Assembly: GCA_022340465.1 (NCBI GenBank)
Contig: JAJDNW010000020.1
Span: 1 to 64,000 of the forward strand
Direction of reading: 5' to 3'
Origin: Deltaproteobacteria bacterium
GTDB taxonomy: Bacteria > Desulfobacterota > Desulfobacteria > Desulfobacterales > B30-G6
DNA: 64,000 nt
Shown here: positions 58,659 to 60,619 of the stretch, one piece after another
Layout of the letters: each line of letters starts with the position of its first letter
How positions within the stretch are numbered: the stretch's first letter is position 1
The notes under the pieces: generated by a model
Told to the model about the DNA's origin: nothing
Database searches by the model: none
What the model saw: only the letters and a program-made list of their open reading frames with translations
Translations under genes and position numbers: made by a program

Positions 58659-59183
58659 CTACGAAGCACTCACTGCCCTGATCAGTTCTTCCATTGCATG
58701 TTGTGCAATCGTCCGCATTTCGTCGTCGGTCCGGTCCTGAATGGGATGGCGTACAAACACGACCGCCGGATCATACCCCAAAGCCAGGGCCTGGGCCTCT
58801 CCAGCAGCCTTGAACTCCGATGAGGCCACATATACGCCCGGAACGCCCCGGCCTTCCAATTCCACGATATCGTGCACACTGCACGACGTGCACGACCCTC
58901 AGTCCGCAAGGGCTTCAATGACCAGGTCGCATTGTGTGCTGATTTTCTGCTGAAGTTCCACGGGGGCTGTTCTTGCAAAGGTTGGTTTCTGATATCGTTT
59001 GACCTTCATGCCCTTTCCGGAAAGCCGGGCCTCGATTTCGTCTAAAAATATGTCCCCGCGGGCCTTCGAGATGTCCAGCAGGCCCACCGTAAGCCCCTGA
59101 AGATCCGCGGGCCTGGGCAACCTTTTCCGCCTTTCAGGGGCGTTTTCAGATGTCGGGTCCAGCAGAATGGTTGTTTTCGTCAC
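58659..59183 (-). CDS. UGSC-family selenoprotein (selenocysteine at an in-frame TGA)
   Basis: A 174-residue protein read through one TGA (58899-58901), which encodes Sec95. Upstream of it the frame reads ...VIEALAD and downstream GSCTSCSVHDIVELEGRGVP, giving the motif U-G-S-C-T-S-C, the hallmark of the UGSC (seleno)protein family as I recall it. A hairpin starts three bases after the TGA, where bacterial SECIS elements lie. The start is GTG at 59183, with AAAGGAGGT six bases upstream, and overlaps the stop of the thioredoxin-like gene (GTGA). A thiol/selenol redox role is inferred from the motif; the reaction is unknown. An annotation treating TGA as stop would report two fragments. Confidence 0.88.
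58870..58895 (-). promoter_or_regulatory. candidate SECIS hairpin
   Basis: On the minus strand TCGTGCAC (58895-58888) pairs perfectly with GTGCACGA (58877-58870) around the 10-base loop GTCGTGCAGT. The loop starts 12 bases after the TGA, the expected spacing for a bacterial selenocysteine insertion element. Confidence 0.75.
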
Positions 59184-60619
59184 GATCGGACCTCCTTTGT
59201 TACGGATTGGCTCCCCTTGGGACCGCTGGCTACCCACCCCCCGATGATGGCGGAAAATAGCCCGGCGGTTCCGCCGGCATGAACGATGTGAAGTCCGTCC
59301 GGCCGGAATTTGGGCAGGGTTGCCTCCTTCAGTGCCTCGGGAACGCCTTCGGCTATGCCGCCTGCCCCGCGAACCAGGTCCGCTCCGGGAAATTGGAGCA
59401 GGCCGTCCAACTCCTCCCTCAGTCTCGATTTTGTCCATCCCGCCCTGCTGAATATGCGGCCGTGTTCAGGGGACACCACCAGCATGGCGTCAGCGGCCAT
59501 GGGGATCTTGGGATGTGCCACGTTTCGAAGGCACAGGGCATAGGTCCGCGCAAGGGATTCGGGCGTGCGGGACAGCTGATCAAAAACGGCCTGAACCCCG
59601 TCTCCAGCGAACAGGGTCACCGTAGATGCGTCTTTTGTAAATCCTCGCTCAACGCTCAGCGGTTCCCATGGCGAATCGTCTTCCTTCTCCGCAAAACAGA
59701 AGGTGTACTTGCCGGGGTTTCCCAGCGTTGAGCGGTCGATCTCGTCCGGCCGGCCCCCGCCTACATTTCGAACCACCAGCTGCAGGGTGCGGCCGATGGT
59801 GGCATTGGCCCGGTTTCCCTGACCCAGGGCGTTGACACCCGAATTCATGCCGATGGCTTTGGTCACGGGGCCGTTGACGACCACCACCGGCCCTGAGAAA
59901 TAGGTTGTGGCCAGTAGACCATGCAGGCAGAAGTCGTCTATTAAAGCCGCTTCAACAGCAGCGAGCACGACCGGCATATACTCCGGCTTGCACCCGGCCA
60001 TGACTGCGTTGATTGCCACTTTTTCCACGGTACAGGGTGCCTGGTTGGGAGGGATGCGGCCCACAACCTCGTCCGCTGCCCGGTCGGTGCCCCGGAGCAT
60101 GCGGACCACGCGGACCTCGGTGGGCGGAACCACGGGCAGTCCGTCGGTCCACCCGCGGGTAAAACAAGTCTCCACATCGTCTTCCAGCTGCGGAGATTCA
60201 ATGCGCCTCGAAGCCAGGGGGACCTTGCCGAACCGCACGGCCAGTTCCTCGGCAATGCCGGGTTCCACATTTTTCGCTCCGCACCCCGGCCGAAACTCGG
60301 GCAGGTCACCGCCCAGACCGTCCATGCCGGACAGCCTCCGCCATTCGGCCCTGTCCCATCCCACGGCGCGCCCTGTCTCTTGGCCGTCCTCCATTCTGAT
60401 CAGCGTGGGGACCGTTTCAATATCGAAGTAAAAGGAGGTTTCCAGTGCCGTATCGTCGATCACGCCCGGCAATCCCTCGGGAAACCCGGGATCATCTTGG
60501 CAATAAATGGTGAGCGCCGCAATGGCTTCGGCGATCTCCTTCATGGCGGGCACGACCGTGGCGCAAGTCTCGCACGCCCGCTTGCAAAACACAATGTACC
60601 CATCCGGCGGTTTTTCCAT
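59180..60619 (-). CDS. thioredoxin-like protein with a large unknown C-terminal domain
   Basis: A 479-residue cytoplasmic protein. Residues 1-100 look like a thioredoxin fold: strand YIVFC, the cysteine motif Cys12..Cys16-Glu-Thr-Cys19, and a cis-Pro-type VPTLI. Residues 140-479 form a domain I do not recognise by name (GWTDGLPVVPPTEVRV, GPVVVVNGPVTKAIGMNSGVNALG, VHAGGTAGLFSAIIGGW). Its stop overlaps the GTG of the UGSC selenoprotein by 4 bp, so the two are made together and probably exchange electrons or form one complex (inference). GGGAG precedes the ATG. Confidence 0.8.
   Translation of the reverse strand: MEKPPDGYIVFCKRACETCATVVPAMKEIAEAIAALTIYCQDDPGFPEGLPGVIDDTALETSFYFDIETVPTLIRMEDGQETGRAVGWDRAEWRRLSGMDGLGGDLPEFRPGCGAKNVEPGIAEELAVRFGKVPLASRRIESPQLEDDVETCFTRGWTDGLPVVPPTEVRVVRMLRGTDRAADEVVGRIPPNQAPCTVEKVAINAVMAGCKPEYMPVVLAAVEAALIDDFCLHGLLATTYFSGPVVVVNGPVTKAIGMNSGVNALGQGNRANATIGRTLQLVVRNVGGGRPDEIDRSTLGNPGKYTFCFAEKEDDSPWEPLSVERGFTKDASTVTLFAGDGVQAVFDQLSRTPESLARTYALCLRNVAHPKIPMAADAMLVVSPEHGRIFSRAGWTKSRLREELDGLLQFPGADLVRGAGGIAEGVPEALKEATLPKFRPDGLHIVHAGGTAGLFSAIIGGWVASGPKGSQSVTKEVRS

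Follow-up and report, generated by a model that had tools for sequence, protein, structure and literature searches.

The minus-strand locus at 58659..59183 of the window (the whole 64,000-nucleotide stretch of DNA that was analysed) raises the question of whether two reading frames parted by a single TGA encode one selenoprotein and, if so, with what partner and in what chemistry such a protein might act. Under the standard code, 59183-58659 is split into two separate ORFs. The preliminary description had placed both frames in phase, divided only by the TGA at 58901-58899, and had assigned the gene a GTG start, a strong ribosome-binding site and a 174-residue product. Coordinates and phase were confirmed, and AGGAGG was found 7 nt before the GTG (59191..59196, minus strand), with a TAG stop at 58661-58659. 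With the TGA (58899..58901, minus strand) read as Sec95, the product contains D-U-G-S-C-T-S-C, and the U-G-S-C-T-S-C motif reported earlier indeed runs unbroken over the TGA.

Selenocysteine coding in the UGSC gene

The read-through product matched PF24696 (E 4e-44, 151 bits; cut-off 25) and NF041046 (E 7e-45, 152.6 bits; cut-off 125), and the family match spans 165 residues, running across the TGA; the UGSC-family membership proposed earlier was thus borne out. Codon 95 is TGA in 80/80 of the nearest homologous loci in reference genomes, with no other stop, and a few relatives carry Cys instead of Sec (L122 is a Cys homologue), so that Sec or Cys is kept at this position, as had been anticipated. 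A profile match across the TGA together with TGA in 80/80 loci places the pattern beyond chance. On this sequence evidence, 59183-58659 is predicted to encode one Sec-containing protein, which belongs to the established UGSC family and is the only UGSC copy in the source genome.

The source genome (162 contigs, 95% complete) contains selA, selB and selD above family cut-offs as well as selC, its tRNA-Sec scoring 75 bits (cut-off 47) and being called tRNA-SeC(tca) by ARAGORN; selB and selC, whose absence had been named as decisive against a selenoprotein, are therefore both present. An in-frame TGA also lies within selD of this genome (contig C13:29872-30798, L017), and SelD is probably itself a selenoprotein. 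Two short GrdB/PrdB-type (PF07355) proteins were observed at C125:15805-16218 (L144) and C118:8822-8992; the PF07355 match of the former stops at a TGA and goes on in frame (U-P-L-C), which makes it probably a selenoprotein too. Among the homologous loci, a selB homologue lies near the UGSC operon in 14 and selA in 10 (within 6 kb), which suggests transfer as a selenium package. The selB-linked loci are from Halopseudomonas, Pseudomonas and Marinobacter (L042, L057, L061, L063, L074, L076, L085, L086) and from Actinobacteria (L027, L030, L035, L041, L056, L071).

In the case of the hairpin, the earlier claim held only in part. A perfect 8-bp stem three bases past the TGA is present (58870..58895, minus strand; arms 58895-58888 / 58877-58870), but its pairing is not kept among homologues, so it is unlikely to be the SECIS. 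Numbered from T1 of the TGA, this stem (7-14/25-32) shows 70% paired cells among 63 distinct sequences, no more than shuffled controls give, and most homologues break three of its pairs. A second hairpin shares an arm with it, making the two mutually exclusive. This second hairpin (58869..58887, minus strand; arms 58887-58880 / 58876-58869) has 8 pairs, one of them G-U, and a GUG loop, and its stem starts 14 nt past the first TGA base. Its stem (15-22/26-33) has 97% of cells paired across 63 distinct homologues, a level that 0/1000 shuffles reach, with compensatory GC/AT and CG/TA exchanges. Taken by itself, the window sequence does not fold with unusual stability (z -1.2). Over the 42 nt from the TGA, the mean folding energy of the homologues (-13.62) lies below all 100/100 synonymous-codon shuffles (mean -12.97, minimum -13.48). 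The downstream hairpin is SECIS-like in lying just 3' of the UGA and in carrying a G in its apical loop, and the covariation makes 58887-58869, rather than the hairpin described earlier, the most likely SECIS.

That the TGA is instead a true stop, leaving two separate genes or a pseudogene, would agree with the two halves being separate ORFs under the standard code. Its probability is nevertheless negligible: all 80 homologues have TGA and none any other stop, the hairpin is conserved, the sel machinery is complete, and the Cys homologue L122 exists. In Geodermatophilaceae, moreover, the Sec of UGSC-motif proteins is encoded by UAG, matching a tRNA-Sec whose anticodon is CUA (PMC5330540), which also argues against a true stop.

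The upstream partner and a second selenocysteine

The preliminary description was right about the selenoprotein but treated the gene alone and did not connect it with its upstream operon partner. This gene, of 479 aa (59180..60619, minus strand), matches no Pfam family at E<=1, and its TGA stop overlaps the UGSC GTG start by 4 nt (GTGA), implying translational coupling. It stands directly upstream of UGSC in 79/80 loci; in the remaining one (L078), UGSC is where the contig starts. Of 297 genomes of the source phylum, 30 have UGSC and 31 the partner core; all 30 UGSC genomes are among the latter, and the one extra core hit is a 100-aa fragment match (hypergeometric P 2.5e-40, a value that ignores kinship among genomes). 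In many phylum members UGSC and core form one ~600-aa chain without thioredoxin, and in others a separate core without thioredoxin adjoins UGSC. The adjacency, the shared genomes and the fused chains together indicate that UGSC is one half of a two-part unit in which the partner is obligate, and the two proteins would be expected to form a complex.

Residues 1-99 of the partner (60323..60619, minus strand) are a thioredoxin domain. They match PDB thioredoxins by profile (E 3e-4), their model superposes on thioredoxin structures (Z 10, 1.9 A over 85 residues), and they combine this fold with a CxxC (C16/C19). Both of these cysteines and Cys113 (60281..60283, minus strand) are invariant, the last lying in RPGCGA here and in RPGCGS in most homologues. 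The core, residues 140-479 (59183..60202, minus strand), belongs to no described family: its ~340 residues match no Pfam or NCBIfam family, and its profile gave only chance-level matches to PDB sequences. A fumarase class I fold, raised by Foldseek against the PDB, was not credible (TM about 0.2, rmsd >12 A). The VIA structure list for the partner was filled by the thioredoxin domain, and so the core fold was barely tested there. By hhalign, the core is related neither to GrdB nor to UGSC, and a search with NF045500 gave no match that would make the partner a GOS_C protein.

In one Acidimicrobiales family, Cys113 of the partner is replaced by Sec. The codon is TGA in L088 and L070 (both Acidimicrobiales), and in the family of L088 the partner occurs in 46/48 genomes, with one in-frame TGA in about 41/46 copies. 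The TGA falls exactly at Cys113 (PGUGS) in 20/20 copies read (L197-L216), most of which have an 8-bp hairpin after it, and the UGSC gene with its own TGA follows ~1.4 kb downstream. For this hairpin, 98.6% of cells are paired in 18 distinct sequences, 1/1000 shuffles reaches this value, and one pair shows a TA/CG exchange. A Cys/Sec exchange at an invariant residue suggests that Cys113 is redox-active. The Sec form is covered by no NCBIfam model, and no papers were found tying Acidimicrobiia to selenoproteins; it apparently represents an undescribed selenoprotein family. In these Acidimicrobiales operons, standard gene callers can be expected to break up or cut short both Sec genes. In Acidimicrobiia, the genes around the operon (MutY-like, oligopeptidase and others) were considered as a functional clue; their synteny is conserved, and they gave no hint.

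Fold, relation to GrdB, and paralogues

In an AF2 model of UGSC built from 40 sequences (pLDDT 92), five beta-alpha units are seen, and Sec95 follows strand 87-93 and precedes helix 96-111. The structural neighbours of the model are flavodoxin-like and receiver-like. The best of them was 8s7v chain H, a subunit of the methyl-coenzyme M reductase activation complex, at a score (Z 12.6, 2.8 A over 129 residues) barely above unrelated folds. UGSC is thus modelled as a flavodoxin-like domain. The thioredoxin fold suggested for it in PMC2398784 agrees neither with this model nor with hhalign to the partner thioredoxin domain (E 0.06).

Selenoproteins of the GrdB/PrdB type are glycine, betaine, sarcosine and D-proline reductases. 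When such sequences were read through their own TGA, the deep UGSC profile aligned with them Sec on Sec (hhalign E 2.6e-6), and with all Cys/Sec masked the value was 7.5e-4, against 0.14 for a reversed control and 0.12-0.89 for 20 column-shuffled ones. TIGR01917 matched one fused UGSC member at E 6e-4. PF07355 gave no match to the window protein at E<=1, and TIGR01917 gave it 13.4 bits, far under the cut-off of 602. UGSC falls under all GrdB cut-offs and so is kin to that family without belonging to it; these profile comparisons indicate kinship with the Sec domain of GrdB, protein B of glycine reductase.

Some genomes of the phylum carry many UGSC domains (23-24 in G033, at least 17 in G208, at least 15 in G252 and 12 in G198), most with TGA and mostly fused to core, some with signal-peptide-like N-termini; these multi-paralogue hosts are called anaerobes by inference from their phylum. 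Near several paralogues are TRAP, TctC-like and ABC solute-binding or transport components, GntR/FCD regulators, ETF subunits, MmgE/PrpD, UbiD, cupins, and pyridine nucleotide-disulfide (thioredoxin-reductase-like) reductases. Up to 24 paralogues per genome with transporter and ETF neighbours suggest substrate diversity. Most copies in G208, G252 and G033 stand alone. Transporter neighbours are mostly lacking from the G208 and G033 paralogues, which counts against a catabolic reading. Among the fused ORFs, profile reading gave the Sec variants USSC and UGAC, and several members keep UxxC only (UGSCTSW, USSCSPA). Three divergent paralogues have neither Sec nor Cys at the site, so that part of the superfamily would not be Sec-redox. 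In a few paralogues Ser or other residues replace Sec/Cys, two of these standing in tandem (L178). In the window itself, the neighbours of the operon, by their sequence mfd, tRNA-Thr and hcp, point to no substrate.

Possible chemistry and known systems

We regard it as rather probable that UGSC and its partner form a thioredoxin-fed, two-subunit Sec-dependent reductase of small organic substrates. UGSC would present Sec95 at a helix N-terminus, as in the GrdB/PrdB Sec domain, and the partner core would probably build the active site with it and help to bind the substrate. The selenolate would attack or reduce the substrate, and a selenenyl-sulfide would be left between Sec95 and Cys98 or Cys101, or between Sec95 and Cys/Sec113. 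The CxxC and Cys113 arm of the partner could bring electrons from thioredoxin reductase and so regenerate Sec95, along a presumed route from NADPH through thioredoxin reductase, CxxC and Cys/Sec113 to Sec95. In the anaerobes, the fused UGSC-core chain would work with a separate thioredoxin, its paralogues having multiplied probably for different substrates. More tentatively, and with somewhat less than an even chance, UGSC and core may constitute a new class of Sec-dependent reductase, in which a new scaffold carries a GrdB-like Sec domain that is served by a built-in thioredoxin with a Cys/Sec relay, with >15 paralogues per anaerobe genome for different substrates, the Sec113 partner being an undescribed selenoprotein family.

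The main rival, for the aerobic lineages, is that the same complex is a thiol/peroxide oxidoreductase, i.e., an antioxidant enzyme or a disulfide reductase, with disulfides of proteins or of low-molecular-weight compounds as its targets. The thioredoxin domain and CxxC of the partner would suit such a role, a thiol redox function is assumed in PMC2398784, and in aerobic Acidimicrobiia the operon is single-copy and conserved without catabolic neighbours. The operon is likewise single-copy in aerobic Halopseudomonas and Marinobacter, and aerobic hosts are not obvious Stickland-type settings, which counts against the reductase reading. However, the UGSC fold is neither thioredoxin nor peroxiredoxin, and the paralogue numbers with their neighbours and the profile relation to GrdB also speak against a thiol/peroxide enzyme, which we consider unlikely. 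A narrower form of the favoured reductase would perform GrdB-type reductive cleavage of C-N, C-S or C-halogen bonds, with a selenoether formed on Sec and released by the partner. The strand-Sec-helix placement, UxxCxxC and the Sec-on-Sec profile alignment are consistent with this chemistry, whereas the missing match to PF07355 and the fused members that keep UxxC alone are not, and we take it as possible though doubtful. The two-subunit, thioredoxin-fed reductase stays the preferred reading.

UGSC is abundant in aquatic metagenomes and ranks among the most abundant GOS selenoprotein families, with 255 Sec against 21 Cys sequences (PMC2398784), and has been without a function for >15 years. A 2026 review (PMC13188914) still gives its function as uncharacterized, and both this review and PMC2398784 agree with the earlier statement that the role of the family is undescribed. 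In the literature searched, the operon partner, the second Sec, the GrdB relation and the paralogue expansion were absent, save that the GOS selenoproteome paper of 2008 (PMC2398784) mentions a 'UGSC/Unknown_1' fusion. The UGSC family was thus already known, and the computational additions are an obligate partner, a second selenoprotein and the GrdB relation. Dependence on a partner, the thioredoxin domain and second Sec, and kinship with GrdB would turn an orphan into a two-protein enzyme open to expression, assay and structure determination.

Compared with known systems, the window protein differs in nothing from the UGSC family (PF24696, NF041046), sharing the whole-length match, Sec at the naming motif and a SECIS downstream; the partner, operon and second Sec lie outside the family description in the available published text. 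The UGSC/Unknown_1 fusion probably joins the same core domain to UGSC, but the operon, co-occurrence, thioredoxin domain and second Sec are not reported in the available part of that source. GOS_C (NF045500) is likewise a thioredoxin-like UxxC selenoprotein abundant in marine data; it gave no match to the Sec form of the partner at E<=1, and the Sec of the partner lies at PGUGS, not at the thioredoxin CxxC. GrdB/PrdB (PF07355, TIGR01917) resemble UGSC in their strand-Sec-helix, UxxCxxC and subsequent E-x-x-G-I/V-P motif, whereas UGSC, under the cut-offs of those families, pairs with an unrelated core and a thioredoxin domain.
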